A DNA stretch of 64,000 nt, from assembly GCA_030272155.1 (NCBI GenBank), contig CP126196.1, forward strand, positions 124,001-188,000. The letters run 5' to 3'. The position numbers and the translations under genes are program-made. Every line of letters begins with the position of its first letter. The first letter of the stretch is position 1. The notes beneath the pieces are model-generated. The model searched no databases. It saw only the letters and a program-made list of their open reading frames with translations, and was not told where the DNA came from. Of the stretch, positions 795 to 63,836 are shown in pieces. The stretch comes from Tetradesmus obliquus (taxonomy: Eukaryota; Chlorophyta; Chlorophyceae; Sphaeropleales; Scenedesmaceae).

Positions 795-2672
795 CAAAGG
801 TGATTGCCTTACATCACAGTTTGCGAGTAGACATGCACTGCAGGGTGACCACAGTTGCAAGGCGTGCACTGCACTGTAGCAGCCGTTTGTGCATACAGTG
901 CTTGCAAGGCTCGAGACACGCAAGGTATTCGACAGGGGGCTGGCATGGCTCACCTGTGCCTGCGTAGGCTCCCTCCCATCTCATCTGAAGCTGCAGGCGG
1001 CTTGCGGTGGCCGACGCCAGCCTGATGGAGTTTGCGCCTGGCAGCAGCAGCGGCAGCGGCAACGGCAGCGTGAACAGCTCGGCAGGGAAAGGAAAACCAC
1101 ATACAAGGACACCTCTTTACCATGTCGTGCTGCCATTGTCTTTGTGCGGCTGCTGACACCCTCCATACATGGAAGCCGCAGCTTTGCTGTGAGTTGAGCT
1201 CTTGCGTTCCATGCATGCGGGACACAAACTCCGCAGGCTGCCAGGTCGGCGTGCAGTGCGTGCAAGTCGGCAGGCGGCTGCACCAGCACATCCGGCTCAC
1301 CTTTCCTGAAGTCCCTGCGCTTGGCTGCGCTCTCTGCGCCATCAAGGCGGTAGTGCTCCGTGAACTGCAGCAGCAGCAGCAGCCCCAGCAGTTATTTCAG
1401 AACATTCAAGCGCTCCTGCTTCTGTCCAGCTGCTGCAATTTCCAATAACCTCACAGCTTGCCGCTGCCCTTTGCAGTGGCCAGCTTCTTAAGCCATGCAA
1501 TGTGCTGGCAGCTGCCACACCTGGCGGAAATGCAATGCAGGGCGCCCTTGCCACTCTATAGGCCACCCTGACTAGCTTGTTAGCTAGTGCCACGGCCCTC
1601 ACCGTGAACCACTCCACCAGGCTGAACACCGCCACATTGAGCACGCCTGCCTCGATGCTGATGCTCAAGCCAGCTCAGCATGTGAGTGTGTACTACACAC
1701 CCTTGATGTCATTGTCCCCACTTTCACCCACCGTGAACCACTCCACCATGCTGAAGACCGCCACAGTGAGCACGCCTGCCTCGATGCTGATGCTCATGCC
1801 AGCTCAGCATGCGAGTGTGTACTACATACACGTGATGTCATTGTCCCCACTTTCACCCACCGTGAACCACTCCACCAGGCTGAAGACCGCGAAGTGAGCA
1901 CGCCTGCCTCAACGCTGATGCTCATGCCAGTTCAGCATGCGAGCTTGTACTACACACACATGATGTCATTGTCCCCACTTTCACCCACCGTGAACCACTC
2001 CACCAGGCTGAAGACCGCAACAGTGAGCGCGCCCGCCTCAATGCTGTTGCAATTCGCCAGTTCAGCATGAGAGTTTGTACTACACACACATGATGTCGTT
2101 GTCCCCACTTTCACCCACCGTGAACCACTCCACAAGGCTGAAGACTGCAACAGTAAGCACGCCCGCCTCGATGCTGATGCTCATGCCTCGCAGCAGCTCC
2201 AGTGCGTTGCGCATGATCATGCCCAGCGACATCAGCGAGGAGGGGCCTTGCAGGCTGTCACTGGCGGCCTTGTCCTGACAGCAGCAGCAGCAGTCGAACA
2301 GATTATTAAGTATTGCTTATTGATGGTTCCAAGTGAATGGGCACATCCATGGCCTGCAGGGCGGCGCATAGTGTGGTTGCACCCTCTGCAGCAGAGCGCC
2401 GCCTCAGGGCCACAGAACGGGATGCAATCTCGACGGTGCATAAACTATGGATGCCTTGTATGCGATGTAGTCTCGTTCAACTGTGGTCATCGCAGTGAGA
2501 GCTACGGTGCTGCTTGACGCAGGACACATGCAACATTCAGTGGCACTGGGTGCTGACACAACTGACACACTGACAAAGCCAGCTGTCCTGCCCCTCTGTC
2601 CTTACAGAACTGCGTGTGCCTTACCAGCATCCAGGTCCCCACAAAGTCGCAGAGCTTCGTGGAATGGTGCAT
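629..2672 (-). CDS. Small protein of unknown function, four exons
   Basis: I do not recognise this protein. Proposed exons are 2672-2625, 2274-2119, 1364-1301 and 741-629, joined in consistent phase to 126 residues. The start is the first ATG after an in-frame stop. Exon 2 has a good acceptor (a CTG run ending TCAG) and a GTGGGTG donor, and encodes a mostly hydrophobic stretch (GVLTVAVFSLVEWFT) that could be one membrane segment. Exon 3 is charged (RLDGAESAAKRRDFRK). The last exon reads VEEVVLVGGDELHITC and ends RRRH-stop; a CAG|GCAAGT sequence inside it could instead be a GC donor to a further exon. Support comes from phase agreement and from intron 2 holding four diverged copies of the exon 2 edge, as in the better-known genes of the window. 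Upstream exons may be missing. Confidence 0.45.
1560..2118 (-). repeat. Four tandem echoes of the 3' edge of exon 2 (gene at 0.6-2.7 kb)
   Basis: Four diverged copies, about 128-131 bases apart, each contain the last part of exon 2 (SISIEAGVLTVAVFSLVEWFT) followed by a donor (GTGGGTGAAAG or, in the last, GTGAGGGCC). The authentic donor is near 2118; the echo donors lie near 1987, 1859, 1728 and 1600. Copies differ by scattered substitutions and one 3-base change, so they are not one sequence re-read. Confidence 0.8.
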
Positions 2673-4498: not shown

Positions 4499-4837
4499 TC
4501 ACAGCTTCTCGCAGATGGCGTCGGTGAAGGTCTGCGTGTTGCCGCTGCCTCCCACGTCTGGCGTGAGCACGCTCTTGTCGCCCGACAGGAACGTCTCCAT
4601 CACAGCAGCCTCCAGCCTGAGGGGCAGCAGCAGCAGCAGCAGCAACGGCAGGTTCAGCAGCATAAATGTCATCAGCCGACTTTCACTACTTGCCGACAGG
4701 AACGTCTCCATCACAGCAGCCTCCAGCCTGACAGGCAGCAGCAGCAGCAACGGCAGGTTAAGCAGCATGAATGTCATTGTTGGCGACTTTTGGTTACTTG
4801 CCAACAGGAACACCTCCATCACTGCAGCCTCCAGCCT

Positions 4838-4870
<33 letters not shown>

Positions 4871-6940
4871 CATTGCGGCGCAATGCATTAGTTAGCAATA
4901 TGACAAACGACGTATAGTGACAGGCTTGTGGTGCGTACAGTACTGCAGCACCAAGCACCCAGCAGCAAGCAGCGAATCAGCATGTGCCGACATTATTAGT
5001 CGCCACTGCCACAGCCGCACACAGCCGGTGCCGCACCTGTCGCTGAAGCTGTGCAGCTGCAGGTGCCGCAGCATCATGCTGGTGGCCAGAGTATGTTCAG
5101 CATTGTTAGCAGAAGTTGGTTACTTGCCGTTTACACCACGTCAGCTGGCCATGCGGTCCGCTGGCGAGTTGCTTGCACTGTGGTGAAGCTGCGCCCTAAG
5201 AAGCTAGCTACACGACACAGGCTACAAGTGACACGCCTGTGCTTGAAGCTGGACCCGCAGCCGCACACCATCAGCCCCACAGCCACAGCCGCACCTGTCG
5301 CTGAAGCTGTGCAGTTCAACCCCTTTTCTTAGCTGGAATATTATTGCATAAAACAAACTCTCGCACACCATCACCCCGCACAGCCGGTGCCGCACCTGTC
5401 GCTGAAGCTGTGCAGCTGCAGGTGCCGCAGCATCATGCTGGTGGCCAGCAGCAGCGCGGTGGGGTTGGCAATGCCCTGGCCCGCAATCTTCTTGCTCACC
5501 TGCGCGCAGCAAACAGGCAGCAGACATCAGCAACACACAGGCAAGCAGTGCACGGCTGTTGAGCGGGCGCCAACACGTTCAGTGCAACTGCATGCTTTTG
5601 AACTCTATGTGCTTCCTGCAAGCTGCTGAGGCAATGTAGTGCAGCAGTACAGTGACAGCTTCGCTTGTGCTGTGCATTAAGAAGCTCAGGTCTGGATATC
5701 GCAACATATCCACAAAATCCGCAATCTTCTTGCTCACATGGCGCGCGCCCTGCTCAAACACAGCCACATCTGTGCCGATGTTGCCGCCAGGCACGATGCC
5801 GTTGCCGCCACACAGGCCTGCAGCAGCAACCGGAAAGGGAACAGGCAGCATGTCAGTCTCTCAAAAGCTCAGCAGCGGCACCTGTACCCCGCGGCCCACA
5901 CCTGCCACAATGTTTGGCACCAGGTCGCCGTACAGGCTGGACAGCACAGCGACAGCACTGCAACTTAGGCGAAACCTGTACCCCAGACACCCCACACCTG
6001 CCACGATGTTGGCCACCAGGTTTCTGTAAAGAACTCACAGACACCATGCATAACACCATGAGCGTTGCGCAGCACAGCAGCAGAACAGCATACAAGATGG
6101 GCAGCACCTGTACTGACGACACCCCGCACCTGCCACGATGTTAGCGACCAGGTTTCCGTACAGGTTGGGTGTGACCATGACGTCAAACTGGTGCGGCCTG
6201 CTGACCAGCTGCATGCAGGTGTTGTCCACAATCATCTCCGTGTACTCGATGTTGGGGTAGCGCGACGCCACCTCCTTGCAAGCCTGCGGCACACGCAAGT
6301 CAAATATGGACATTAGAAAATGATTCACTTGTCACAACAGCCCAGCAACACCCCTCTTCTGCAAGCCTGCAAGCACAGCCAAGCAGCAGCAGCAGCATAC
6401 ATAAGCTGCATCGGTGGTACTCAATGTTGGGGTAGCGCGACGCCACCTCCTTGCAGGCCTGCGGCATGCAGGAATCCAGACATGGATTTTTGAAGATGGG
6501 CAGGCGCATACAACATTATATACTCGATCCATGTAGATGATGTTGGGGTAGCACGACGCCACCTGCTTGCAGGCCTGCAGCAACAGCGGAAATTCACCCA
6601 CAATCAGGCAGATGTGCATCAGCTGAAAGGGAGACGGCACGTCCCACAAGGTGGGCGGCCGTGCTGTTGCAATGATAAATACAGGTCAGCAGCAAGAGAC
6701 ACGACGGGTCGAGATGTGCTGCTGATGGCTGCAACCGTCCTACATGCTGAACTTCTTACTTGGAAGCTCATGTAGAAAGGTGTGAACTTCACCCTTTACA
6801 TACACTCACCTTGAGGAACATGCCATCTCCCTTCTTCATGATGTTGGCCTTGTGCACTGCAGTCACGCGGCGTCTGTTGTTGAGAAACGCAAACTCAAAT
6901 GCGTACTCCGCTGTGCGCAGCGAGCGCTCTTCGGTGATGA

Positions 6941-6980
<40 letters not shown>

Positions 6981-9900
6981 GCAAGTGCGGGAGGTTGCAG
7001 CGCTGATTTGGTGGTGTTAATTTGTAGCACAGTTGACGGTGTGCTCTGTGCGCCGGCAGTGATGGCCTCGGCACAGCAGAGCAGCAGAGCGCACACAAGC
7101 GCCCCCCGAGTCTGTCCATGCTGCTGCTGCTGCTGCTGTTACTGCCGCTGTGGTGGGGCAATGGCGGCTACGTACCACAGCAGCGGCGACCTATTGCTGT
7201 TCATACGCTGCCTCAGCACACCTTGAGGCTCTCCACCACGCCATCTACCATGCTCCAGCCCACTGTACTGCCACTGTACTGCCACTGTACTGCCATTGTA
7301 CTGCCACCCACCTTGAGGCTCTCCACCACGCCATCCACCACCTCATGCTCCAGCCCACTGTACTCGCCCTCAAGGTTCTCCCTGCAGCAGCAGCAGCAGC
7401 AGCAGCAGCGAAATCAGGCTTCAGATACCATGTGATATGCCCTAGCACCTAAAGCGTGCACCAGCATGGTCAGCTCCTACGAACAGGAGCCAAACAAAAG
7501 TCAAACCAAGGTCAAAAGCCCATCTGATGACGACAAATGTCCAGGTCCTCATGGCGCACAGGGATGCACGGCAGCGTGAAGCCGTGCACCAAGTTCCTCA
7601 TCAACCCTCAGAACAGAAGTGAAATCTGAGTCAAACGAAAGTCAAACATCGCACCTGATGACCACGATGTCCAGGTCCTCGTGGCGCACAGGGATGCCCG
7701 GCAGTGTGAAGCCGTGCACCAGGTTCACGGCCAACCCTAAAAACAAAAGTCAAACAAAAGTCAAACAAAATTTAAACAAAAATCAAACGAAAGTCAAACA
7801 CCCCACCTGATGACCACGATGTCCAGGTCCCCGTGGCGCGCGGGGATGCCCGGCAGCGTGAAGCCGTCCACCGAGTTCCCCGTCCACCCTCATGACAAAA
7901 AATCAAACAATAGTCAAACAAAGTCAAACATCGCACCTGATGACCACAATGTCCAGGTTCTCGTGCCTCACGGGGATGCCTGGCAGTGTGAAGCCGTGCA
8001 CCAGGTTCACTGTCAACCCTCACGACAACAGTCAAACCAAAGTCAAACTAAAGTCAAACAAAGTCAAACATCCCACCTGATGACCACGATGTCCAGGTCC
8101 TCATGCCTCACAGTGATGCCTGGCAGTGTGAAGCCGTGCACCAAGTTCACTGTCAAGCCTCACAACAGTAGTCAAACATGAGTCACACCAAAGTCAAACA
8201 TCGCACCTGATAACCACGATGTCCAGGTCCTCGTGGCGCACGGGGATGCCTGGCGGCGAGAAGCCGTACATCAGGTTCACCAACAACTCCCAAAACAAAA
8301 GTCAAACCAAACTCAAACAAAAGTCAAACATCACACCTGATGACCACAATGTCCAGGTCCTCATGGCGCACGGGGTTGGCCGGTAGCGTAAAGCTGTGCA
8401 CCAGGTTCACCGTCAACCCTGATCAACCCTGAAAACAAAAGTCAAAAAACAGTCAGCAAAAGTCAAACAAAAGTCAAACGACAGTCAAATCCCACCTGAT
8501 GACCACGATGTCCAGGTCCTCGTGCCTCACAGGGATGCCTGGCAATGTGAAGCCGTGCACCAAGTTCACCGTCAACCCCCACAACTCAAGTCAAACATGA
8601 GTCACACCAAAGTCAAACATCGCACCTGATGACCACGATGTCCAGGTCCTCATGGCGCACGGGAATGCCTGGCAGTGTGAAGCCGTGCACCAGGTTCACT
8701 GTGAGCTCCAGGTCCTTGCGCATCTGCACGTTGAGCGACTGCGTGGAGGTGTTCTTCTTGCTGAGGGGCGTGAACAGCGTGCCCTTGAGGCACACCTGTG
8801 TTAGCATGGCAGCAGCGTTCAGCACAACAAGAACCTTGAGCACGTGTTCTTCTTGATGAGGGGCGTGAACAGCGTGCCCTTGAAGCACACCTGCAAGGTT
8901 TAAGGTGTGTGGCGGCAGCAGAGGGCAGCAAGTAAAGCAGCTCACATGCACCGCAAACGAAGAACCGAGCTGTGCAACACTACTTGTGTGAGTGCTTGCA
9001 GATGTTGCCACAGTTGCTGCACCTGCTGCATCTGTCTGATGCTGCAGCAGAAGACCCTGCGCCACACATGCCGCAGCAGCTGCTGCTGCTCTGCTGCTGC
9101 TGCTGCTGCTGCTGCGTGCTCTGCTGCTTCTTGTGCCTGCTGTCTGCTAGTGCGCCAGCATGCCAGCTGCAGTGCCAGCTGTGCGTGCTCCCCGCTCGCC
9201 GACGCTGCAAGCACAGCCGGCAGATGCAGCCCCAGCGCTGAACAGCTGCTGCGCCTCTCAGCTTCAGCGCACAGCTACTCAACAGCCAAGATGCGAAACT
9301 CATAAGTCATTCGATTTACATACTGTATCTCTGCCCACCTTGTTCTTCCTGATGCTGTCCAGCACCTCTGCGGGCACCTCCAGGCGAGGCATGCCGTCAG
9401 GACTGTGCTGGCTTGCTGGGCGCCTTTCCACTGCAGTGCTTGGCTGGCGCTACGTCTAGAGTTGAGGCTGGAAATGAACAGCATAACAGCCCAACTTGTA
9501 GTGTGCTGAGGTGCTGGCCAGCATCAGGAAGAAGTCTTCTTCCTGATGCTGGCCAGCACCTCAGCACACTACATCACGCCCACCCAGCCACAGCATGATA
9601 CACTGGTGATCATAACATAACAACATGTAACAGCGCCCACCTTGTTCTTCCTGATGCTGTCCAGCACCTCTGCGGGCACCTCCAGGCGAGGCATGCCGTC
9701 AGGCATGGCACCAGACAGCCCGTCAAACCTGAGGGGCCCCAGCAGCAGCAGCAGTGGAAGCAGCAGCAGTAGCAACAGCACTGAGCGCACTGGAAGGGCA
9801 GCTGCGTGTTTACAGTGCGTTTGTCTGCAGGATGCTGGGGTTGCGTGCAGACTGCGCGTGGCTGGGGCCCAAAGCACATCTCTTGAATGTTTTCAATGGG

Positions 9901-11596: not shown

Positions 11597-11640
<44 letters not shown>

Positions 11641-13791
11641 TGGCTGGGGCAGCAGCAACCAAGGCCGTGCTTGGCCCCAGCAGCAGCAGCAGCAGCAGCA
11701 GCCTCAGCTGCTGTTTCAGGGCAGTAGAGCGGGGCAGGGTTCAGCCGCAGATGAACCTCAGCCTGGCAAAACCCTCAGCGGGCTCTTAATCGCCAAGCTC
11801 AGCAACAGCAGAGACCTGCAGGAGCTGGCACAGGTTTTAGAGCAGCACAAAACCGCACTGGGGCCAGTGCACATCAGTGCAGCGATCAGCAGGGCAGCAA
11901 GGCTGCACCCTGGGCTGCTGGCGCTCCAACAGCCGCCGCCTTGGCAGCAGCAGCAGCAGCAGCTGACACAGCAGCAGCGGCAGCAGCAGCAGCTGCAGGG
12001 CTTGCTGTCCTTGCTGCTGCCGCGCTTTGTTGCGCAGCTGCCGCAGGCGTCTTTTGTGGAGGTGTCGTGTGTTGTGGGCGGCCTGGCGCGCATGGGATGT
12101 TACAACGCCCCAAGTGACGTCATTGATGCCTGCCTGGATGTTACGCGGCACGCGCTGTACAGAAATGACGTCAGTAACAAGGAGCTGCTGCAGCTGGGCT
12201 GGGGCTTGGCACGCATGGGGCGGCAACCTGACAGCAGCTGGCTGGCGGCGTTCGAGGCAGCAACACGAGACAGGTGAGGGTGGGCAAGTTGCGTGCATTT
12301 GAGGACGGCAGAGCGGGTTGGCCACCAATCCTACAGCTATGTGCTGCGCTTGCAGCGCAGGGATTGTGCGCACCAGAGAGTAAAAGCACCCGAATGCGGG
12401 CATATTCTGTGAAGTTGTCGTGCACAACGTCCAAGTTGGCTTATGTGCCAGCAGCATGAGTTTCGGCTGCTGCGACCTGCCTGCCTGCCGCGCATGTCCC
12501 ACATGCTGACACGACTGTGTATCTTTTGCAGCCCTGAAGCTGCCCAGCCTGAAGCAGATCTGGGTTCAAAGTCATAAGTTTGAACATCATACCATGTACG
12601 GCGCACCGCTGCCACTGCTTGCATGCAGGATGCCCAGCCTCAACCACATCAAAACCGCCAACGTGCTGTTAACAGTCCATTGATTACAATGATGTCTTCA
12701 ACAGCAATTCAACAGTTTTGGTGCACACCTTTCCACACCCAATGTGCTGTGAACAGTCGATTCAACGCAACAATAGTTACAACAGTTTTTAGTGCACACC
12801 ATTGCCACTGCTCTCCTGCAGGATGCACACCCTGAACCACATTGAGACCGCCAATGTGCTGTGGGCCTTTGCCAAGTGGGGCACCCCACCCTCACCTGCC
12901 TGCCTGGCCGCACCCGCAACACATGTGACCTGCTGCCTGTTCCCAGCCCCCTGTACCCTCTGAACTTGCCTCGCCTGTAACAGATACCACACGGGAAAAC
13001 GTAACATTTGATTATCTTATCTATCTTGTCATACATCGGCACACTACTGCCACCCTGTTTGCAGGATGTCCAGTCTCAACCACATTGAGACAGCCAACGT
13101 GCTGTGGGCCTTTGCCAAGTGGGGCACCCCACCCTCACCCGCCTGGCTGCCGCACATGTCAACACATCTGACCTGCTGCCTGCTCCCTGCCCCCCTGAGA
13201 CTTGCCTCGCCTGTAACAGACACCACACGGGAAAACTCAACCTTTTCATCTTATCTATCTTGTCATACATCGGCACACTACTGCCACCCTGTTTGCAGGA
13301 TGCCCAGTCTCAACCATATTGAAACAGCCAACGTGTTGTGGGCCTTTGCCAAGTGGGGCACCCCACCCTCCCCTGCCTGGCTGGCCGCATACCTGGCCCA
13401 CCTGCCGGGGCAGCTGCTGGCACTGCAGCCGCCTGAGCTGTGCAGCGTGATGTGGGCGGCAGCAATGCTGCAGCTGGCACTGCCGGCTGAGCTGCTGGAC
13501 GGACTGCTGCTGGAGGCGCAGGTGCGTGGAGGTCTTGAATTTGGGGTGTGGTGCAGAGGGCGAGGTACTTGTGGCAGCCATGCTGGTGCTGCCGGCTGAG
13601 CTGCTGCTGGAGGCACAGGCGGGTGTGTGTATTGGGTGTGTCTGTGTTGTGGTTGAAGGATTCTAGTGTAATGCCGTGTTGAGTAAATTGCGAATGTTGG
13701 TGCCTGCGTGTGCATGGGTGTCGGTGACTGCTGCTGAAACAGGTGTGCGAGCTGGCATGGCTTGTGACCTGCCTGTAACAGGGGCGTGATG

Positions 13792-13883
<92 letters not shown>

Positions 13884-14387: not shown

Positions 14388-16253
14388 GCCGCTGCTGCTG
14401 CTGCCGCTGCTGCTGCTGCTGCCGCTGCTGCTGCTGCTGCTGCAGGACTTTGTGCGCCACAGCGGTGTCATGCTGCCGGCCATGGCGGCCATCAAACGTG
14501 ACCAGGGCTTCACCAACCTCATCTGGGCGCTGGGCTGCTGGGGGCATGCGCCTCCACAGGCCTGGCTGCAGCAGTACTGCAGGTGGGTGGGTGGCAGGTT
14601 TTATCAGCCACCTGTTACGGGTGTTTTGAGTGCTTCACCAACCTCATCTGGGCGCTTGGCTGCTGGGGGCATACCCCGCCCACAGCATGGCTGCAGCAGT
14701 ACTGCAGGTAGGTGGGCGGCAGGTTTTATCAGCCACCTGTTACAGTTTTTTTGAGGGCTTCATCAACCTCCTTTTAAGCGCAGGGCTGCTGGGGCCATGC
14801 ACCTCCACAGGCCTGGCTGCAGCAGTACTGCAGGTGGGTGGGTGGCAGGTTTTATCAGCCACCTGTTACGGGTGTTTTGAGGGCTTCATCAACCTCATCT
14901 GGGCGCTTGGCTGCTGGGGGCATACCCCGCCCACAGCATGGCTGCAGCAGTACTGCAGGTAGGTGGGTGGCAGGTTTTATCAGCCACCTGTTACGGGTGT
15001 TTTGAGGGCTTCATCAACCTCATCTGGGCGCTTGGCTGCTGGGGGCATACCCCGCCCACAGCATGGCTGCAGCAGTACTGCAGGTAGGTGGGCGGCAGGT
15101 TTTATCAGCCACCTGTTACAGTTTTTTTGAGGGCTTCATCAACCTCCTTTTAAGCGCAGGGCTGCTGGGGCCATGCACCTCCACAGGCCTGGCTGCAGCA
15201 GTACTGCAGGTAGGTGGGCGGCAGGTTGCATAAGCCACCTGTTTAGATGGTTTGTGCTGAGGGCTTCATCAACCTCGTTAAAGCGCAGGGCTGCTGGGGC
15301 CATGCACCTCCACAGGCCTGGCTGCAGCAGTACTGCAGGTGGGTGGGTGGCAGGTTGCATAAGCCACCTGTGTAGATGGTTTGTGCTGAGCGCTTCACCA
15401 ACCTCATCTGGGCGCTGGGCTGCTGGGGGCACACCCCGCCCACTGCGTGGCTGCAGCAGTACTGCAGGTGGGTGGGTGGCAGGTTCTATCAGCCACCTGT
15501 TACAGGTTTTTTGAGGGCTTCATCAACCTCGTTAAAGCGCAGGGCTGCTGGGGGCATACCCCGCCCACAGCATGGCTGCAGCAGTACTGCAGGTGGGTGG
15601 GTGGCAGGTTCTATCAGCCACCTGTTACAGGTTTTTTGAGGGCTTCATCAACCTCGTTAAAGCGCAGGGCTGCTGGGGGCATGCACCTCCCAGTGCGTGG
15701 CTGCAGCAGTACTGCAGGTGGGTGGGTGGCAGGTTTGATCGGCCACCTGTTTCAGGGTTCTGTGCTTGTTGACGTCATCTGGGCGCTGGGCTGCTGGGGG
15801 CACACCCCGCCCGCGGTGTGGCTGCAGCAGTACTGCAGGTAGATACTATGCCAAATGTTGCTTTATCACCGCATTTTTGGATCCAAGGTCAGGGCATTGT
15901 TGGTGTTCAGAATGTCACGTGCTTGCAAGTGCTGCAGTCAACCTGTTGCTGCTGCTGTCCTGCAGGTGTGTCGTGCCTCAGCTGCCACACATGACAGCGC
16001 AGGGCTTAGCCATTGTGGCCGTGGGTTTAGCAGAGCTGAACCACGTGCCACCTCAGCAGCTCACAACCTACCTGCTGCTGCTGTTCCACAAGCAGCTGAC
16101 AGCAGCAACGCCCAGCCAGGCTGCATGCTTCCTATGGGCCCTGCCTAGGCTGCTGCTGCAGCTGACACACAGCCAAGCAGCAGCAGCAGCTGCTGCTGCT
16201 GCTGCTGGTGGTGGTGAGGGCGCAGAGGGAGATAACAGTGCAGGCTTGCTTCT

Positions 16254-42600: not shown

Positions 42601-45191
42601 GCCACGTGACCAGGAGCTGGACGAGGTGAGAGCGATGTTTTGTGATTCAAGGGTTTAAGCCAGCTGGCAGGGGTTTTAGGGCACATGTTCTCTGTTGATT
42701 GGATGCCGGCCTGCTGCCACGTGACCAGGAGCTGGACGAGGTGAAAAGCGTGCAGGCAGGGTGGTAGGGTTCACAAATGTGGTTTGGGGGTGAATAGACC
42801 CGAGTGCGTTTATGATTTGCTGCTGCTGTACCAGGCTGACCTGCTGCCGCCCAACCAGGAGCTAGACACGACATGCCCTGTTGTGCTGGTGTGTCAACTG
42901 CCCTGTTGTGCTGGTGTGTCAACTGCCCGAGCCCGGCAGTGCAGAGGTCATGGCGGCTGTCAGCCGGTGGCAGTCTACTGGAAGGCTGATCGTAACACAG
43001 CATGTCTTTGAATGTGTGTTTGTGTGCGTTGCTGTGCAGGTGTACCAGCTGCCCGAGCCGTGCTCCCCTGAGTTCCTGGCTGCAGTCACCCAATGGCAGT
43101 TTACCAAAGAGTCTGATTGTAACACAACATTTCTTTGAATGTGTGTTTGTGTGCGTTGCTGTGCAGGTGTACCAGCTGCCCGAGCCGTGCTCCCCTGAGT
43201 TCCTGGCTGCAGTCACCCAATGGCAGTTCACCGAAGAAGCCGAGGATGAGGAGGCGAAGCGGCATGAGTTCTACGGCATGGGCGGGGGCACCACCTTTGG
43301 CGAGGTGAGAAAGCACACAATGGTGCTGATTTTTTGTTTGTGTTTGTATGTTTTGGGATGTAACTGGTGGTTGTAGGGGTTGGTGGTGTGCAAGCAGTAT
43401 GCCGCGGCTGCATGGCAGCTGCACTTTTTGAACCGGTGAGTGTCCTGATGTGTGTAGATGCTGTGTGCTGCTGGTGGTGTGTGCTGATGCTGTGTTGGTG
43501 GCGATGAGCAAGCAAAGCGGCATGAGTTCTACGGCATGGGTGGGGGCACCACCTTCGGCGAGGTGAGCGAGGTTGCTGCGCGTTTTGCGCGTTACGTGCA
43601 GCGTGCGCGTGCGTGTGTGTGCGTGCGTGCGTGCGTGCGTATTTGTGTTGCGGAGCTGGTAGTAGTGTGCTTGGTTGGTTGTGTGCTTGGGGTTTGTGCG
43701 CGGGATGCATTATGTGTGGTGTCCGGTGAGTTGAGTTTGACCTGGATTGCCAAAGGTCATTATGCAGCTGCTGTGCGCTCACGCACCTACAGCACTCAAC
43801 ATGTACCTGCTGTCCCTGTTGGTCTGCTGAACCTGCTGATCAAACCTCCCAACTGAATTTGCCAAGTACTCCTGCAGAGCGAGCACTAAGACATTCACAA
43901 GCACAACGTTGAGCTGGACGAAGCAGGAGACGCCACACCACATGTAACATTACTAAGTGCCTGATCACTCCTCAACCAGCGACTGCTGTATGCAGAACGA
44001 GCCTCTGAGCAGCACAAGCACAACCTTATCCAGACCATACCACACGTGCTTTGGTCCCAAGTGTGTTTGTTCAACTGCTTTGCTGAACTTTTCTCGCCCG
44101 TGATCACCTGCTGCAGAGTGAGCGCTATGACAAGGACAAGCGCAACATGGAGCGGGATGAGGCGGGCAACATAATCTACCGCCAGGGTTACGCCGGCGAT
44201 TACAACAACCCCAGCCGCTGGTCTGCTGCTGGGCCCGGCAGCAGCAGCAGCGACGACTTTGGCAGCAGCCGGGGCAGGGGCCGTGGCGATAGGGGCCGCG
44301 GTGACAGGGGCAGGGGCCGGCAGCAGCAGTACCAGCAGCGCGAGCAGTACCAGCAAGCCTCCCAGGGTGGTTATAACAGTTATAATGACAGTTATAACAG
44401 TCAGGGAGGTGGATATGATGACGGGTATAACAGCGGCGGCAGGGGCCGGGGTGACAGGGGCAGGGGCCGGCAGCAGCAGCAGCAGCAGGGGCGGCAGCAG
44501 TGGCAGCAGCAGCAGCCGCAGGAGGATGATGGCGGCTGGTTTGGCGGCAGAGATGATTCTGTGCGGGAGCGGCAGATGGACTTTATGGGTGAGATGGGCT
44601 CAGGCAGATACAGCGATGATGAATTTGGCCCTGGCTTTGATGCAGCACCTGGCAGGGGCAGGGGCAGGGGCAGGGGTGGGCAGCAGCAGCAGTACGGTGG
44701 CCGTGATGACTCCTACCGGCAGCAGCAGATGAGCTACATGCAAGAGAGGGGCTCGGGGCGATACAGCGATGACTATAGCAGCGGCGACAGTGGCATGTCA
44801 GGCAGTGGGAAGGAAGATTGGCAGCCGCAGCAGCAGCAGAGGCGCGGCGGCAGTGCAGGAAGAGGAGCTGCGCCTGCGGGAAGAGGAGTGGGCGGGGCGT
44901 TTGGAGGTACAGGCGATGCTGTGAGGCAGTGGCAGATGAGCTATATGGAGGAGATGGGCTCAGGGCGATACAGCGATGATGAGGAGTATAATGGGCCAGG
45001 TGCAGCAGCAGCATGGGGTGGCAAAGGTGCTGGTGGTGGTGCTGCTGGTGATGTTGGCGGGCGGGATGATTCTGTGCGGGAGCGGCAGATGGATTTCATG
45101 GGTGAGATGGGATCCGGCAGATACAGCGATATGGAAGATGCGGGTGGTGATGAGTATTATGCAGCGCCACCTAAGGCTAGCCGTGGCGGCC

Positions 45192-51370: not shown

Positions 51371-53257
51371 CTACCGTCTGCTGCCAGCTCCACCCCTGCC
51401 TGGGTCAACCCTGATCCGACCCTCAGGCTCGCCATACACCACCCCTGCAGGGTCAACTGCTGCCAGCACCTGCTGCTGCCGCGCCAAGTGCGCCGCCTGC
51501 CGCTCCTGCTTGCTAGGCGGCAGCAGCAGCCGCCATTGCAGCAGCGCCCGGTCATGCCCGCCAGTGCTCACTGCATAGCTCTGGTCTGCAGACCAGCGCA
51601 CACATGTCACGTGGCTGCTGTGGCCGCCGTAGCAGCGCCCTGGCGCATCCTCCACCACACATGGGCAGTTGAACAGCTTCACCTGCAGGCAGCAAGCATT
51701 GCAGTGCGGCTGAGACAGTGATCAAGCAAGCCCCGGCTCAGGACGCCACTCAAGGCTTCGGCTGGGCCGTCACATCACAACAGCACCCACACCTGCCGCA
51801 GCACTGCACGCGCTTTTAATGCAGTCAAAGCAATCACTGCAATTGTTCCAGGCGTTCAGTGCCGCACCTTGCCACTGTCGTCTGCTGTGAGCAGCAGGTC
51901 CCCTTGTGGTGACCGGTCCGCAGAGTTTATGTCTGTGCCGTCGCTATCAGGCGGCCATATGCCCATCACTGGGAAGCCCAGGGTGCTGCTGAAGCTGGCC
52001 CAGGCTGTGTCCCTGCAACTAATTTTCAGCAGGCGGCCGCTGGCGGCATCAAAGTACAGCAACTGCGGCAGCAGATCAGGACAACACCGCAGAACAATGT
52101 GGGTGTTACGGCTAGAGCCAGTGGTTGCTAAGGTCTCATGTGCAGCCATTCGATGGCCAGATGGCCGTCACAGGGAAGCCCAGAGTGCTGCTGAAGCTGG
52201 CCCAGGCAGTGTCCCTGCAGCTGCCCTTCAGCAGGCGGCCGCTGGCTGCATCAAAGTACAGCAACTGCAGCATACAAACAACAGGAATATCGGCGTGGCA
52301 GATGTGGGTTTTGCAGCTAGGCACAGCAGCGATGCAGCTGCACACCTCTCCCACCAGCTCATCACATTCTGCTGATGATCAGCTGAATACAAACTGTGCA
52401 ATCACGTGTCAGCAGTGCTGCAGCCCTGTGACCGCAGCTACGCCGCCACACACCTCGTAGGCCTGGTCCATGCTCTGGATGCAGCTGCCGTCTGCAGACC
52501 AGTCCAGGCGCCGCACCGCAGAGGAGTGGCCCACGCAGCGACACACCCTGGCAGCAGCAGCAGCAGCAGCAACGCGCCAGCCGTGAGTGCAGCTGTCCCG
52601 GTAAACACAGACATCACGGCGTGCAAGCAATCGTGCTGGGAAGCTTTGAACAGCTGCTGGCGCCAACAACAGGTCTGCGCAGCAGCGCCTGCCAGGCCCA
52701 TCCTGCGTGCTGGCAGCTGTGCGGTTCATGTTACACTGGCCCAGGCACCATCATCATCAGGATCATCAGTGCCAAGCCTGCATGCCCCAAAAAGCACTTC
52801 ACAGCGCAGTGTGCTCACCTGCGCAGCCCGTCTGGCGTGATGTCGTACACCTCCACCACCTTGTCGTGGCCTGCTGCTGCCAGGCGGCTACCGTCAGGGC
52901 TGTAGCGCAGCACGTCAACAGCACTGGAGAAGCCCTGGTGCCACCACACCTGCAGACATGAGGTTCCGATAGAATGGCGGTAACGCATGGGCAGATGGTA
53001 TGAGCCACAACAGGACGATTGCATGGTCTGCGACAAGCAATCACGAACGTGAAAACACAGTCTTGGTAAAGTATGCCATGATGCCATCAACACCACACCC
53101 ACAAACCAGCCCCACCTGGCGCATCTCCGGGTGGAACTCGAAGCCCTTGAGGCCTCCCCCGTCCAGCCCCACAGCCAGCTGCCTGCCATCAGGGCTGAAG
53201 GCGGCACATAGCGCAGTCATGCCCTGGCCGACAGGAAAGATGCGCAGCGGCTGCAGC

Positions 53258-53315
<58 letters not shown>

Positions 53316-56104
53316 GGTTCGATACCTTGGCTAATGGGGATGTGCCAGCTGCTTGCCATCAGGGCTGAAGGCGGCACACCGCGCAGTCATGCCCGCGCCC
53401 ACAGGGAAGATGCGCAGCGGCTGCAGCAGCAGCAGTAGCAGCGGGTTTAGTGCCTTGGCTGAAAATATGCCAGGTAAGGTAGGTTAAACTGCAACAGACC
53501 GCAGCCACAACTGTGCTTGCAGCCGTAGCGCGGATTGCACATGGGGCTGTTTGACGTGGTACGTGATCATGAACAGCGGTGCATGTTGTGCTGCTGGCAG
53601 GCATCGTTGCACGCGAGTTGCTGGCTGGCTGCTGGTGCTGCGTGAAAAGAACCATCCTGCTACGATGCTGCGCATGCCATGCCTTGCGTTGCTTGCCGGA
53701 GCTGCTTATCTTTGCTCTTTTTGCTGCTGCATCAACCTTGACACCCCGCTGGAGGCTGCACCATCCCTCAGCAAATGCGTGGCTGCGTTCCTCACTGCAA
53801 CGTCCATCCTGCTGCCCAACGTCTATCCTGCTGTTCCACGCGCGTGGTGTGGCATGTACACTCACCATGTGTGTGGCTGCGTTCCAGACTGCCACCTTGC
53901 CGCCTGACGCTGTGCTTGCAAACACGTGCGGGTAGCGGGGGTTGGTGGTGCAGCAGCTGGGCTGCCCCGGCTGGCCATGCAGCAGGATGCGGGGGTCACC
54001 GTCCACCTCCCATATATCACCCACAGCAGTGCCTGCAGCGGAAGTGTTTACTGGAGTGATTGCATGCACGATCGCATGCATCATATGATGTGCATGTGTG
54101 TTTGCGCAAGTGGTGAAGCAGCATGTGCTCAGATGCCAGCTGCATGGCACGCCGCGCCACCGTCCACCTGTACGCACCACATACATGTCCCAGCAGCAGT
54201 GCCTGCAGGCGGAAATGTGTGTGAGAGAGTCCAAGCTTTCGCAGTTGATCCTTGTGCACTGCAATTGTTAGGCATCATTCATTAATAGCTCAGCAGGCAA
54301 CACTGTGCATGGAAACGCATCTGCACAGCTGTCAAGCAAGGCAGCAGCAGCAGCAGCAGCAAGCACAGCCTCACCTGCCACAAACACTCCTGCAGCGCCA
54401 TGCATAGCATCCAGCGCCCGTATGGCATGCGGCAGCCTCCCACTAGGCTCCGGGCCAGCACCCATCAGGGCAGGCGAGCGCTGCGCTGCTGCTGCCGCCT
54501 GCGCTGCTGCTGGCGTGAGCAGCGGCAGGCGCTGCAGGCACTGGCCCAGGTCCCCTGCTGACACATCCCACTTGAGCACGTGCCTGCGGCACATAGGAGA
54601 TGACCAGTGCCGCAGCATGTAACACAGCGTGTGACAGGGCCTAGCACGTGCCGCCAAGCAGTGCGCAGCACAAGGTAGGGCCATGTTAATGTGGCAGCAC
54701 CACCAGGCAAACACACTGTCAACATCGGTCAGACACCTGCGTCCCACAACCTCATGCATGCAAACCAACAAGCTCCCCCCCCCCCCCACACACACACACA
54801 ACCGTTAACGCCTCCACTGAGCAGTGTCTTGCCATCCTCCAGCAGCATGCGCGCAGCCACACCCCACAGCTCTGCATGCCATCAGGCCGGTGCTGCAGTA
54901 CAGCTCACTCACCCATCTGCACCCCCACTGAGGAGTGTCTTGCCATCTGCCAGCAGCACCAGCGCAGCCACACCCCCGTTGCTCTGCATGCCATCAGGCC
55001 GGTGCTGCAGCGGGCCCTTGGCGTGTGCTGGGTGAACGGCAATGCAGCGGCAGCCTCTCCAGCTGCAGATGGCACCGTCTGGGCTACCTGCAGGGCCACG
55101 TCATACATGTGGTGGTGGTTTTTTTGTATAAAACCGAGTCTAGCCACCCACTGAGTCCTGAGGAGTACGGTGGATGCGTAACTGCACATTTGTGCGCGTT
55201 TGTGTTGTGTTGTTGATCCTTGTTTGAGATCTGCCGGCACCAGGCTTATGCGGCTCACAAAAAAGCACAACAGGACATATGACAGCACCTGTTCCCTCAG
55301 CCAACTGCAGAATCTAGCAGCGTAAGCGTGGGGAGACTTTCTTACGCACATTGCCTGCGGCCTGCACCCAGGACCTGCTGCTTCTCCTCCTGTCTGCCGC
55401 ACCTGTGAGCACCACCCCACTCGGCAGGAAAGCAGCGCTGAGCACGCTGTGGGTGCCGCCCTTGCCAAACACACCAGCATCAGAGCTGGCAGCCAACTCC
55501 CCTGACGCACTGCTACTGCTGCTGCTGCTGGAGCGGTCCAGCCGCCAGAACCTGATGTGGTTCTGGCCAAATGTGACAAGCCTGCATAGGCACAGCCAGC
55601 CAGCAGTAGCGTGAGTGTGCAGGGTAACGGCTTCAGGAGGCCGGTGTTGTGCAGGGACGACAGCAAGCTGCACTGCAACAAGTTTTGCATTTGAACTGCC
55701 GTACAAAAAATGAAGCACACACAGGCGTCTTGGGTCCTCAAGTTTGTTGATACAACATGCAAGGCTTCACAGCAGACAGACACAGTCGATGGTACGCCTG
55801 CAGCCTTGTGCAACTGCGCCACATCCACATGTACTTGTGGCTGCCTACCTACAGGCCCACCACACACAAATTTCACCTACAAGCGCACCTGTCAGGCTCG
55901 AAGCGGCTCCACGCCACGCCATACACAGCAGGAGGCGCCCCTGGCTGACTCTTGCGCTCCAGCAGCTTGATTGCCTTGGGCCAGTGCCACACGAAGAGGC
56001 TGTGGGAGTTGTCTGTGGCGATGCAGGCCAGCTTGCTGCCGCTGCTGGAGAAGCAGAGCGCCTGGATGCCACGGTAGCCGTACCTGCGGTCATCAAACAA
56101 TTAG

Positions 56105-56136
<32 letters not shown>

Positions 56137-59100
56137 CATGTTCAGCAGCAGCACAGGTTCTCAGAGGGCAGCTGCAGGCTTGGTGGTAACAGCTTCACAG
56201 CAGCTGCCGCAGCACTGCCAGTTGGTGATGTGCAACACACGCGTTTGATGTGCGCTGTCGAAAGGCTGCAGGCAGCTCACCCATGCGCCAGTCGCGCCAG
56301 CTGCGTGCAGCTCACAGAGTCCCACACCTGCACCAGGCAGCAGCAGCCAGCACAAGTACTGCATCGCACTTTTTTTGCACAAGCAACGCACACCAGCTGC
56401 CAGCCTCACTCAGCAGCAGCAGCAGGCGCAGCAGCGCGCTCACCAGCACTGTGGGGTCCTTGCCCAGCTGCCCACAACCCAACCTACACCCATACGATTA
56501 CCACTAGCCCTACGTGATTGCAGAACAACAAAGCAGCAATGACACAACACAGCACCGCACCCACCAGCACGGTGGGGTCCTTGCCCAGCTGCCCACTGGC
56601 AGCGATGCGCTTGTCAGGCGCCAGCGCCAGGCAGCAGATGTCATCGTCGTGGCCCCTGCAGTGTATATGTACGGTAAGCATGCAACGCAGGTGTGATGCA
56701 TGCAGCATGTCACGCAATGGTGGTGAGAGCGCCAGCGCCATGCAGCAGATGTCATCGTCATGGCCCCTGCAGCATGTATGTAAAGCCAACACATGTCCAG
56801 CATGTACGTATGCGCCAGACATCAAGGCAAGTGTGATGCATGCAGCATGCAAAACATTACATTACATTACAGTACATTACATGCTCCACTCAAACGAGGA
56901 GTGGGAATAAAACAAGCGTGACACGAGCAAACAAGACATTGGGTTGACCAGAGGCAGGTGGCGTGTAGACTGGTTGCTGCTGTGCGGCACCTCATGGCTG
57001 AAGCACAGCCATATAGGCAAAGATTGGGTGGCTACTGCAGTGAAGGAGCATGATGCACATGCACCAAACTGTGGCATGGACTCTGTGTACAAATGCCTGC
57101 AGCAAAGCCACTTCATTTGCAGCACACTGCCCACCTGAAGTATTGCTGCTTGTGCGCTGCAGCGTCATACACCACACACACCGCCGCAGCGTACGTCACG
57201 ATGTGGCCGTTGCAGTTGACCCAGATGTTGTTGCTTGTGGCGCGGTGGCTGCGGCACATGACAAAAGGCAGCAGGAAACAGCAATAGTCATGAGACGGCG
57301 CAGCTGCGCATGCCAGCGGCCAATAAAGTACACAGTTGGCAACTGTGGGAAGCAGCCATACCTATCAGTCCTGCCCTTGCATTTGAACTCAAGAGCAGCT
57401 ACAAGTAGTACATGAAATCAGCCACAAACCCAGCTGTTCAAACAGTGACCAAGTCTGCAAATTATTAGGAACATTCAGCCCCCGCACTGGCGTTGCATGG
57501 CATGTGTGGGCTCGCTGCCAGTGAACGCATGACTCTCAACTTTCACTCACACATCATAGCCATACACCCACTCCAGCGCCAGCTGCTCCTCAGGCAGCCG
57601 CGCGCTGCGAAGCGCCAGCGCTGGGTCCCAGTCACTGGGAGGCCTGGCGGTGAAAGAGTGCAACATATCTCAGCAGGATGTGCGACATACAATGGGCGGG
57701 CCCCATACAAGGCCGGGCAGCCTAATATGCACATGGGCAAGATACTGTGCCCGCAGCACAAAGCATGTCAGTGCGACGGGATGCTGCCAACGTGCTTTGC
57801 ATGGCCAGCTGTGACTCCCAGGCAAGCATGTTACAAGCTGTGCTGGCGCAACCACTGCATGGAGTAGCTGTACATAGCGCTATTGCGTGCATCGCGCGCC
57901 TGCCTCTCAGCGACACCCCCATGACATGTGGCGTGCTTCCAAGAAGCTGCGGCACACTCACCACACGCCTGTCTTCCTGCACTGCGGGTATAGTATCTTG
58001 CCCATGTGGCTGGCTGGCTGCCCTGCCTTGTAGGGCCCCCGCTGCACTTCTGACTCCATCAGCATCAGCTGCCGCGGGCCGCCTACTATCAGTGACTCAA
58101 CAAACACCTGCAGGGGGCGGCAGACACAGCACAACCGAAGAACAGAAGAGTCTTGCAGGACGCAGGGTGCTGACTCCATGAGCATCAGCTGGCGCGGGCC
58201 GCCTACTATCAGCGACTCCACAAACACCTGCAGGAACAGCAGACACAGCGCAAATTTAACCTGCTCGCTATTGATGAAGATTGGTCTGCATCTATCTTTC
58301 CTTGAAGATATGTGGCAAATACACAACAGCCTTGCAGCAGGCCACTGCACTGGACCAGGGGTCACATCCCTCTGCTGGCGCAGTGATGCTGCAGCTGCAT
58401 CTCCCACCTGACATACAGCACGATTGCTTTCCTCACACTGTTGTCCTAGTACACACTGCTTGCCTAGTGTATGCCCATTGGGAGAATCCTCACCATGACT
58501 GGCAGCCTGCCGCGCACATCCTGGCCGTAACGGTTGAACAGCCCGGCAGCATGTGCAGTGCTGACAGCCAGGCCCAGCAGTGCCCAGGCCTGCACAAAGC
58601 CCTGCACATCAACTTTGTCTGATGCAGCCACTTCACTGTGGCCAGACCTGCCCAGCACCTGCAGCAGCATGTGTAAAAATTGTTGAGTTATTACAACAGG
58701 GCTGCACATTTAATGAGTGAAGTGCTGCAGGGTCTCTGTTTTGACATGTGAGAGCTAGATTGCCTGTGTGCAAGTGGCTCATGCAGCGTGCTGCCAAACA
58801 GCTGCTGCTGCTGCTGCCGCCGGGTACGCCGAGCACAAATGCTACTGGTGTGTTTGAATGACATTGCTGATGAAGTTTGCCGCTGCTGTGAACAACTACA
58901 TGCCTACATGTCCTGCAAGCAGCATGAACATAATACATTGTCTCCACACACCTGAGCGAAGGCCTGCAGCAGCACCACACGCTCTGGCTTGTGCACTGTT
59001 GCTCTCGCATGCAGCTGCCGCCGCATGCGTTCCTCAAGTCCTGCAAGCTCAGGGTTCAGCCCTAGGGTTTGCTGCCCGTAAGCCCTAAGCTGCTGCTGCT

Positions 59101-59307: not shown

Positions 59308-59350
<43 letters not shown>

Positions 59351-60159: not shown

Positions 60160-60193
60160 CATGCAACATAATGCATACTCACATAGCAAGAAG
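60160..60193. repeat. Dispersed 34-base repeat, copy 2
   Basis: It matches 34489-34522 with three differences. As at the first copy, it directly follows a short perfect tandem duplication (here AGGTCAATCATTGC twice). Confidence 0.75.
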
Positions 60194-60886: not shown

Positions 60887-60891
60887 TTACA
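60887..60891 (-). terminator. TGTAA polyadenylation signal, serpin gene
   Basis: TTACA on the plus strand lies about 95 bases beyond the serpin stop codon at 60984. Confidence 0.4.
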
Positions 60892-60983
60892 CAGATCTGT
60901 ACAGACACATCACCCTTTTACCCAGCACTCCAGCTGGCTCCCAGGCCTCCTACTGCAGGAAACCCCACTAATGACCAACCGCC

Positions 60984-61549
60984 TCACTTCACGCTCATCT
61001 GTGTGGGGTCTTTGACCACCCCCATGAACAGCACGCTGCTGCTGGCATCATCAACCAGCATGAAAATGAAGGGCCGGTCGAACACGATGGGCGGTGTGGT
61101 CTCCTGGATGAAGGCGGTTGCTCCCACCATGATGCTGGTCACTGCTGCTGCCTCAGTGCCCACCTCATCCACAATGACCACCACCTGCAGCAGCAGCAGC
61201 AGCAGCGGCAGCAGCAGCAGCAGCAGGATTGTTACTTGGGCAGTGCAGGAAATGCTGCTGTCCGCATGAGCTGCCATGTGTCATACCAAACGAGAAAATT
61301 TTGTATGCTTTGCATAACCATACCTGCAGCAGGCATGCAGTAGCACCAGGCGCCCCACAGGTGACTGGGTGCCACGTATGCACAGACAGCTGATAAGTGT
61401 GTCTCCTGGCCATGCCAGCCGCTTGATGCACGTGGTCTGGCTCACCGACTGTGTCACGTCTGTGATGAACAGGTCATCCTTGGACAGCCTGTCCAGGTTG
61501 GCCACGTCAGGTTTGAAAGCAGCAGTCACATTCAGCGCCTTGAGCGCCT

Positions 61550-61618
<69 letters not shown>

Positions 61619-62150
61619 GCAGCAGCAGCAGCAGCAGCGGCAGCAGCAGCAGCAGCAGCACCAGCACCAGCAGCAGCAGGAACAGCAGCAGTGAAACCCA
61701 TCGGGAGTGACTGACTCGGACCTCAGGCACAATATCACGTCAGCTGGGACAGTTCCTGCAACTCAACAGCACGGGGCCGCAGAAAATCCAAGTGCACCAA
61801 TGGACAACACAACGCTCCTTGCTACTCTGGTGCGGGGCAGGAGCAGCAAACCCCCCACAGAACCCTTCAAAACCCGTCCACCATCAACTGCGCGGTGCAC
61901 GTACCTGTCCAACAGGCAGCATCTCCTGGCTGATCTTGAACTTTGGCAGTGACACCTGCAGCTTGGGCTCTGCTGCTGAGGCAGGCTGCCACGGGGCGTT
62001 CAGGATGCGGCTCAGGCCAATGCCTGCCAGCGCAGCAGCAGCATCCAGCTTGTACGCCTTCTGCAGCAGTGCAAAGAGGCAGCAGCAGCAGCAGCAGCAG
62101 CAGCCACACGTAAGGTAAAAACCAGGCACAAACCGCCTCACCAGTACCAC

Positions 62151-62188
<38 letters not shown>

Positions 62189-63836
62189 CATGCACATGCA
62201 CATTTGTGCAGTTGCAGTCACACAGCCCTGTGTTATGGCAGTACTGTGGGACAGCCATTGCCGCAATGCACCCCGCAGCACACTGTCCACCACCCATGCA
62301 GCTGCAGCTGCTGAGCCGCCCCTCAGCACATTGTGCCCTGTTTTACAAACGCACCTGGTCTGGCAGCACAGCCACTGCCACGATTTTGCTGCCCTTGTAA
62401 GGCAGCTTGACCGCCCTGAACTGGCCCGCCACCTCAGCCCACTTCACATCAGCCTGGTAGAAGCCCTTGCCCATCATGTCCACCTGCACACACATATAAC
62501 AACCTTACTGTGATGGACAGTGCTGCATCCGCATAGCTGGACACAAGCTACAAACAAGCAGGTGAAGCAACATGTATGACATCGACCAGCATGGATTGTG
62601 AAACAAACAGCCCAGGCCTCCTGCTGATGCATGGTGGGACTGTTGCACTGCCACCTGCCGCAAGATATGTGCGTTTCATTGTTGTTTTCTTGCAATTTGC
62701 AGGCTCACCTGCACTTGCTTGTTGGCTGGCGTGGTGAAGGGCCGCTTGTAGGTGGAGCTGGGGCTGAACTGGTACTGCCACGCACCCTGCAGTCACAGCA
62801 ACCAACCACGCAGCAGTGGAAAGCAGCGGGGCAACGCCGTGCGATTGCTACTGTCAGCAGCACAACTGCACTTCTAAGCGACGTAGGGGTTGCAAGTTTG
62901 TGTGTGTGGAACGACTGCTACTGGCAGAGCAGGCAGCACAGAGCAACACCAACACATCTACAGCGTTGCAGGAGCCCTGGATGCAGCCAGGCGGGCCCTC
63001 CTGACCTCTGTCACTGCCACTGTTACACCATTTGCAACTACATGTTACATGACAACTACATGTTACTTGAAATCCTGCCGAGGCTCGCCTTGAAGTACAC
63101 CGCGTTGGTGATGACTGCCTTGAACTTGCTGTTGGCTGGCACTGCCGTCTTGATCAGGCTGGTATATGGCAAGTTAACAATACATAACATGTGGCAGACT
63201 GATGTCGAGCCTCACCTTGAAGTACACTGCATTGGTGACAACTGCCTTGAACTTGCTGTTGGCTGGCACTGCCGTCTTGATCAGGCCCCGAGTGGCCTTC
63301 ACAGCCCAGTCATTGATGGGCGCGGCGCTGCTCACAGCAGTAACAGGGGCCTGCAAGGGTGATAGAAAGAAGCAGGCTGAGGACATCATTGCTATCTCTT
63401 ACAGCGCTGCTGCAGTATGCGAGGTGGGTTACGCATGTGGCGCAGCGTGGGAGGCAGCTGCAGTTGCTACCGCAGCATCAGCATGCGCAGCAGGACGTAG
63501 CAGAGGTACCAGCATGTCTGCAGCAACTGCATCGACATCAGCAAGTCGCCAGTAGCAGCTGCAGGGCCCAGCATCCGCAGCAGCAGCAGCAGCTCAATGC
63601 AGCATGCTACTTGCCTGAAACAGCTTCAGCATACTGTCCGAGTAGGGCTTCAGGACATCAGTCTTGTTGGTCCAAACAGCATTTGCAATCGTCAGTTGCG
63701 TGCCGTTGCTGCTAGACTGTGCAGCAAGGGCTTTCATAAGAGCTGAAGCTTCACTGTTGAGTGCTGTCTCTGCTGTGTTGGCTGCTGCCAGTGTGTTGGG
63801 CAGCTGCTTCTGGGTGAGCACTGTCCATAGCTCCCG
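60984..63836 (-). CDS. Serpin (serine protease inhibitor family), 5' end outside the window
   Basis: Serpins trap proteases by a conformational change after cleavage of a reactive loop. Seven exons are visible: 63836-63615, 63350-63216, 62786-62709, 62483-62355, 62060-61905, 61547-61446, 61184-60984, all phase 0. Landmarks are TIANAVWTNKTDVLKPY, INDWAVKATRGLIK, AVVTNAVYFKGAWQYQF, VAVAVLPDQ, SLPKFKIS, ALNVTAAFKPD..LDRLS and the C-terminal DRPFIFMLVDDASSSVLFMG. The reactive-loop hinge, DEVGTEAAAVTSIMVGATAF, has the small-residue composition of inhibitory members. Counting from the hinge puts P1 at Thr in VGAT|AF (inference). The first intron shown has a CAG|GCAAGT donor, a GC-AG intron. The N-terminal exons, including any signal peptide, lie beyond 64000, so the cell location is unknown. 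Confidence 0.92.
61551..61690. repeat. CAG microsatellite abutting a serpin acceptor
   Basis: About 22 uninterrupted CAG units (61551-61617) and further CAG/CGG units to about 61690 read as CTG repeats on the minus strand and end directly in the acceptor of the exon at 61547. Confidence 0.92.
63084..63165 (-). repeat. Downstream echo of a serpin exon
   Basis: It repeats the end of the exon at 63350-63216 (LIKTAVPANSKFKAVITNAV-type text, to YFK) 125 bases past the authentic donor. Its donor reads GCGAGC in place of GTGAGG. Confidence 0.9.

Follow-up and report, generated by a model that had tools for sequence, protein, structure and literature searches.

Why should the introns of an alga's genes carry, over and over, partial copies of the exons beside them? 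The question is raised by 64,000 nucleotides (nt) of Tetradesmus obliquus DNA (assembly GCA_030272155.1, contig CP126196.1, positions 124,001 to 188,000), the whole of which we call the window, and in which a first-pass annotation had described diverged copies of exon edges, each with its splice site, in the introns of eight of twelve genes. We searched for arrays and pairs with Tandem Repeats Finder (TRF) and self-BLAST, masking simple repeats throughout, and counted as a duplication family any match above 50 bits at an offset below 700. The copies are real. Local direct duplications form 29 families in the window, whereas no local pair above the threshold arose in 20 order-3 Markov versions of its unmasked sequence. 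By eye these families occupy at least eight gene regions: ~1.6 kb, an IDH3-like gene (4.5-6.6 kb), 7.4-9.7 kb, 12.6-15.8 kb, a FabI gene (35-38.9 kb), 40.9-43.6 kb, an EML-like gene with HELP and WD40 domains (52-58.3 kb) and a serpin gene (61-63.8 kb). Copies lie at the places named, but some families are in-frame coding repeats, as at 44285-45135, where repeats of an RG-rich protein are all coding in the gene model and are not decoys. The 20 kb at 15,841-36,282 contain predicted intron-bearing genes and not one duplication family, which agrees with the earlier remark that some genes show none.

At exons whose boundaries are fixed by protein homology, the copies follow a simple rule of direction. 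Reading by eye, we found in the IDH3-like gene two upstream copies at each of two acceptor edges and two downstream copies at each of two donor edges; in FabI, one acceptor edge with two upstream copies and one donor edge with three downstream copies; and in the serpin gene, one donor edge with a single intronic copy 127 nt downstream, its GT changed to GC. Upstream copies consist of the exon start with its acceptor and downstream copies of the exon end with its donor at every such exon checked in the three genes, and each copy at the exons read holds one edge only, none being a whole exon with both splice sites. The claim that the innermost copy gives the family-correct protein was also borne out. 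The exon-joined copies of the IDH3-like gene encode a protein that aligns without gaps to 120 residues of human IDH3 gamma (expect value (E) 7.4e-43), the inner FabI copies give a gapless 182-residue alignment to plant-type enoyl-ACP (acyl carrier protein) reductase (E 1.3e-102), and the serpin exon end TACTTCAAG spliced to GGTGCGTGGCAG yields YFKGAWQYQF as in serpins (E 1.2e-14). The rule itself comes from geometry plus selection and needs no special bias: when a direct duplication crosses an edge and spares the protein, it can only leave the 5' part with an acceptor upstream or the 3' part with a donor downstream.

The duplications are not peculiar to the window. Our first sample comprised the window and 19 ten-kilobase stretches (254 kb, 20 sequences), with one stretch of satellite arrays, L017, excluded from family counts. 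It contains 99 families, present in 15 of the 20 sequences, and at the same threshold L002, L003, L004, L008 and L018 have none. With L017 excluded, local pairs are direct in 181 cases and inverted in 3, two of the latter being self-palindromes. A replication sample of 60 kb, made up of five further stretches and both window flanks, gave 13 adjacent pairs, six of them at offsets of 110-122, and one inverted pair; the density was uneven, with 7 pairs in the five mid-chromosome stretches and the other 6 in 10 kb adjoining the window. Searches for Rfam matches and tRNAs found none.

Where the families lie was assessed against gene models from a hidden Markov model (HMM) that was trained, without RNA, on the sequence it then labelled, and in these models some exon-touching families were judged differently by eye. 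Families touching a predicted exon number 82 of 99, compared with 59.7 when families were randomly positioned 200 times (sd 4.6, maximum 70) and 71.7 when the positions were matched for GC content (sd 4.4, maximum 85). Only 5 families are purely intergenic (25.6 random, 14.7 GC-matched) and 12 purely intronic (13.7 random); since several of these 12 are coding by eye (63076 in the serpin gene, 6242 in the IDH3-like gene), the exon share is higher than the labels suggest. In 79 of the 99 families one copy, and no more than one, reaches 30% exonic sequence. In an automatic scan, which misplaces some pairs read otherwise by eye and from which pairs rich in CAG-type repeats were excluded, the best splice junction was placed within the block for 37 of the 68 pairs (24 on the donor side, 13 on the acceptor side); among random windows, only 91 of the 392 scored gave such a placement. 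The intron part of the blocks, by eye, is mostly 3-15 nt, and 20-69 nt in some.

These edges need not be splice junctions. Outside the window, blocks at L006 5402, L021 7737, L016 1957 and L023 3087-3507 (four copies) terminate on a stop codon or just after it, with the copy on the far side of that codon, and no splice site is involved. Splice sites are thus not required; the factor common to the edges is the edge of coding sequence. The same observations bear on copying of exon ends as such, coupled to splicing or transcription, for instance through R-loops bounded by splicing factors. That blocks end sharply a few nt past the junction, on donor and acceptor sides alike, would suit such coupling, as would the near restriction of the sample's families to intron-bearing genic DNA, but with edges at stop codons and an RNA step that is purely hypothetical we regard it as decidedly unlikely.

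In the replication sample the picture is mixed. A coding-score test on the seven pairs of suitably short length showed no difference from GC-matched windows (n = 7, p 0.47), despite which the loci are, by reading, mostly exon or coding-sequence edges: five short pairs read by eye comprise three exon edges, one site near a C-terminus and one minisatellite, and L023 carries two four-copy arrays, one at an acceptor edge and one at a stop-codon edge. Also in L023, at ~2150-2802, upstream acceptor-edge copies and a downstream donor-edge copy of one exon meet at the same exon-internal point. The over-representation of exon edges that the first-pass annotation proposed is real in the first sample, as judged from RNA-free gene models, but the replication coding score does not repeat it.

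What kind of event left these copies? Repeated tandem duplication, the origin first suggested, accounts for part of them: at FabI 37292-37695 the intron part is repeated together with the exon part in a plain contiguous tandem. Most two-copy pairs, however, have the form copy-spacer-copy, and in many the spacer is unique. Spacers resembled the partner expected from a tandem at p < 0.05 in 7 of 46 cases, and shifted local controls did so in 9, 3 and 6 of 46. Diverged contiguous tandems as the general case were rejected on similar grounds, as an anchored alignment was mildly positive relative to other loci (7 of 49) but the shifted local control did equally well. Pairs whose copies are 98-100% identical still have unrelated spacers.

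Both copies and spacers are local. In the 104.66-Mb, 17-contig assembly, all 20 decoy copies tested (33 were prepared) have their matches in their own surroundings and nowhere else, and for the 25 spacers tested nothing farther away matched better than E 0.08. We therefore rejected mobile elements, introners or dispersed filler as the source of the tested spacers, and a second haplotype or paralogue as the source of the 20 copies tested. A related possibility is chimeric assembly of diverged haplotypes, in which the edges of two haplotypes are joined serially and both introns kept. It would explain the roughly twofold greater length of copy-bearing introns and the mainly synonymous differences of the closest pairs. 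We consider it very unlikely, given that copy identity ranges continuously from ~70 to 100%, that many copies are frameshifted, that arrays reach ~11 copies, and that the 17-contig assembly holds no second version of the 20 tested copies elsewhere.

Spacing is also structured. Among 113 adjacent pairs (L017 included), 35 have offsets of 110-129 and 4 of 100-109, and a second group of 15 lies at 240-269. When no offset cut was applied, 29 cases fell within 105-145 against 21.6 expected (P 0.012). A block/spacer correlation of -0.64 obtained with the offset cut is inflated by it, and the idea that block and spacer lengths compensate to keep the offset fixed was dropped because the relation is weak once that cut is removed. 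Arrays often repeat block and spacer and end in a block, as at 1600-2187, where different sequence follows the last one, a form that fits expansion of a copy-spacer-copy seed.

The copies decay. For 48 pairs, again leaving aside those rich in CAG-type repeats, we set the reading frame from the functional side; differences fell on the three codon positions as 90/63/161, and 122 of 254 changed codons were synonymous, against a fraction of 0.26 expected by permutation. By our own estimate, one drifting and one constrained copy should give ~0.4, and pairs below 86% identity (41 of 120) lie at or below that value. Gaps between copies shift the frame in 26 of 28 cases. Drift accounts for most of the divergence, with some constraint or an already diverged source possible; strong conservation of the decoys, partly favoured by the synonymous bias, is countered by the frameshifts. 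The suggestion that decoys drive alternative splicing found no support, the indels in copies being mostly frameshifting.

Introns with copies are longer, as had been proposed: predicted introns with a duplication have a median of 424 nt (n = 71) and those without, 227 nt (n = 154; p 3e-9), and duplication spans cover 20,641 of 81,733 predicted intron bases in the sample, about a quarter. One intron may itself have arisen this way. Intron 5738-5500 (minus strand) of the IDH3-like gene opens with the 19-nt start of the next exon (5481-5499 and 5719-5737), its length equals the offset of 238, and it is a single clean case of the textbook geometry of intron gain by duplication. Birth of introns from duplicated exon sequence containing AG|GT, with donor and acceptor in different copies and intron length equal to the offset, might extend to L011 591 and L016 6582, but among 224 predicted introns there was no excess of intron starts that resemble the start of the following exon (0 seen, 0.36 expected, at 12 of 18) or of intron ends that resemble the end of the preceding one (1 seen, 0.43 expected), and the serpin, FabI and IDH3 copies sit inside introns whose other end lies elsewhere. 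Intron birth was accordingly rejected as a general rule, and we hold it extremely unlikely as the explanation of the copies.

The account we tentatively favour, plausible though far from secure, is that short-range direct duplications recur and are filtered by splicing, with break repair producing the copy-spacer-copy type. Stretches of gene DNA, mostly coding edges, would be copied directly and repeatedly to sites ~100-140 nt away. Insertions inside exons would be purged by selection, whereas an insertion that leaves an intact exon on its own splice site could survive, since the outer copy would leave with the intron or sit past the stop codon. The outer copy would then drift through frameshifts and substitutions while the functional copy retained the protein. 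Some copies would be plain tandem duplications; those with spacers may be templated insertions made during repair of breaks in introns, in which one end starts synthesis on the other's single-stranded tail and is rejoined after copying a part of that tail, and unequal exchange between two existing copies could build arrays. The net result would be longer introns carrying decoy splice sites. The local direct copies anticipated by such repair are present; microhomology at the joins is inseparable from the aligned block.

Several observations weigh against this account. Where a junction lies inside the block, the intron share has a median of 0.155, against 0.60 in random windows (Kolmogorov-Smirnov test against uniform, p 8e-7), and the model does not explain why the block stops so near the exon edge. 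Nor does it explain the scarcity of noncoding-only families, which number 17 of 99 by labels and fewer by reading, against 39 at random. Block and spacer lengths balance only weakly without the offset cut (Spearman -0.23, p 0.12, n = 49). Copies contain 1 stop where 7.3 are expected by permutation (P 0.005), and in 13 pairs at or above 92% identity 20 of 27 changed codons are synonymous, largely from L016 6582 and L014 6882, which exceeds drift.

Much of this would follow if the copies were old contiguous tandems in which selection or gene conversion had preserved the coding part, perhaps for use as regulatory splicing decoys or alternative exon ends, and the intron parts had diverged beyond recognition. 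Blocks would then end at coding edges by themselves, as they do, stop codons included, and noncoding-only duplications would be invisible; the mostly synonymous differences of the closest pairs and the depletion of stops fit as well, and spacers have diverged more than blocks in 17 of 25 arrays (mean 0.237 against 0.142, p 0.022). In the other 8 of 25 the reverse is true, however, and preserved coding parts sit poorly with gaps that nearly all shift the frame, with spacers no closer to their tandem partners than the local background, and with near-identical pairs whose spacers are unrelated. On balance we judge old tandems an unlikely origin. A bolder possibility, that this lineage has an active process preferentially copying coding exon edges in direct orientation over ~110-140 nt, perhaps bounded by transcription or splicing complexes, and forming a main source of intron length and decoy splice sites in its genes, also seems to us unlikely. 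The sharp end of the block at the coding edge and the rarity of noncoding-only families are nevertheless the parts of the result worth most, since short-range duplication filtered by splicing leaves them unexplained.

Separate parts of the favoured account have precedents (PMC4974935, PMC2891723, PMC8355091, PMC8654963, PMC6071210). In a single published case of intron gain, the duplicated segment likewise crosses an intron-exon boundary, copying splice signals and part of an exon; that case concerns one new intron, whereas here many genes are affected, copies lie mostly inside longer introns, many spacers are unique and no general sign of new introns appears. Novel intron positions in Drosophila, described as tandem duplications of coding sequence with proto-splice sites (PMC2891723), share local exonic duplication with one copy intronic, but there the new intron lies at the proto-splice site and here the junction is usually outside such geometry. 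Breaks with 3' overhangs can yield small tandem duplications through CST-Pol alpha-primase (PMC8355091), likewise short, local and direct; as described there they are contiguous, whereas in our sequence the members of most two-copy cases are set apart by 15-100 nt or more, with a preference for coding edges. Templated insertions by polymerase theta, from a 3' end extended on the other end, are said to be frequent and patchwork-like in plants (PMC8654963); a break end templated on the other, local copying and multi-step patchworks are shared, but our copies are 31-120 nt long and nearly all direct, and we met no report of a preference for exon edges. Tandem duplication of an exon plus part of the flanking intron, giving mutually exclusive exons (PMC6071210), involves whole exons with both splice sites, in contrast to the partial, one-edged copies here. 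A literature search that left most subscription papers outside its scope found no genome-wide report of junction-bounded partial exon copies, and none of the sharp block ends or the rarity of noncoding-only families.

Should the pattern hold genome-wide with RNA-based gene models, it would offer a measurable route for intron growth and splice-site multiplication, let one ask how the spliceosome separates a true edge from nearby copies, and provide dated fossils of exon edges inside single genes. For gene finders it is already a warning, as our simple HMM chained copies together until they were masked.

Table 1. Local duplications in the window, with copy number, unit length and relation to the exon (R, repeated block).
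Position	Strand	Gene	Feature	Detection
1600..2187	-		Exon 3' part with donor, five copies; R ~72 nt, unit 129; array of R plus spacer ending in R, different sequence after last R	TRF, self-BLAST, reading
4582..4864	-	IDH3-like	Exon 5' part with acceptor, three copies, unit 111; 4582-4644 joins exon body	
5020..5448	-	IDH3-like	Exon 3' end with donor 5379-5448; downstream copies 5262-5314 and 5020-5089 (latter 100% over 70 nt)	
5880..6163	-	IDH3-like	Exon 3' end with donor 6074-6163; two diverged downstream copies	
6242..6582	-	IDH3-like	Exon 5' part with acceptor 6242-6291; upstream copies 6417-6466 and 6540-6582	
7219..7364	-		Coding block, two copies, offset 90, one with 5-nt gap	
7481..8702	-		Exon 3' part with donor, ~10 copies, unit 130-152; only copy at ~8651 joins exon body	
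8749..8893	-		Acceptor-side pair, 50 nt, 96%, offset 95	
9333..9703	-		Donor-side pair of 69 nt at offset 302, copies (9333 and 9635) 100% identical	
9497-9573			Near-perfect palindrome (98.7%) in spacer, made from part of exon copied at 9333/9635	
12599..13389	+		Coding block, four copies, unit ~245	
14504..15840	+		Block ending in donor, eleven copies, R 87, unit 125	
36283..37262	-	FabI	Exon 3' part with donor, four copies, unit 245-249; ~37144-37262 joins exon body	
37292..37695	-	FabI	Exon 5' part with acceptor, three copies, unit 134-137; contiguous tandem including intron part	
40891..41370	+		Exon 5' part after CTGCAG, four copies	
41466..41926	+		Coding block, three copies	
42595..42867	+		Exon 3' end with donor (35 nt), copied at offset 115 with 100% identity; third copy partial	
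42904..43237	+		Three copies, unit 126	
43245..43567	+		Exon 3' end with donor GTGAG (65 nt), copied at offset 258 (92%)	
51953..52272	-		118-nt coding block pair, 89%, offset 202	
53174..53442	-		99-nt coding block pair, 91%, offset 170, CAG-rich end	
54811..55010	-	EML-like	Pair ending 9 nt before donor, offset 111	
56429..56596	-	EML-like	Donor-side pair, offset 121	
56618..56782	-	EML-like	Acceptor-side pair, same exon as 56429..56596, offset 111	
58050..58253	-	EML-like	Acceptor-side pair, 85 nt, offset 120	
63076..63286	-	Serpin	Exon 3' end with donor 63203-63286; downstream copy 63076-63159, GT to GC	

Repeats of other kinds were also seen. A 40-bp unit is perfectly repeated twice at 34403-34484, and many CAG/GCA/CTG triplet runs throughout the window give long Gln, Ala and Ser runs in the predicted proteins. 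Beyond the window, L017 1-6039 consists of satellite-like arrays with periods of ~274 and 351 bp, and in L024 979-2139 a 550-bp segment is directly duplicated, the two copies being 99% identical and 61 bp apart.

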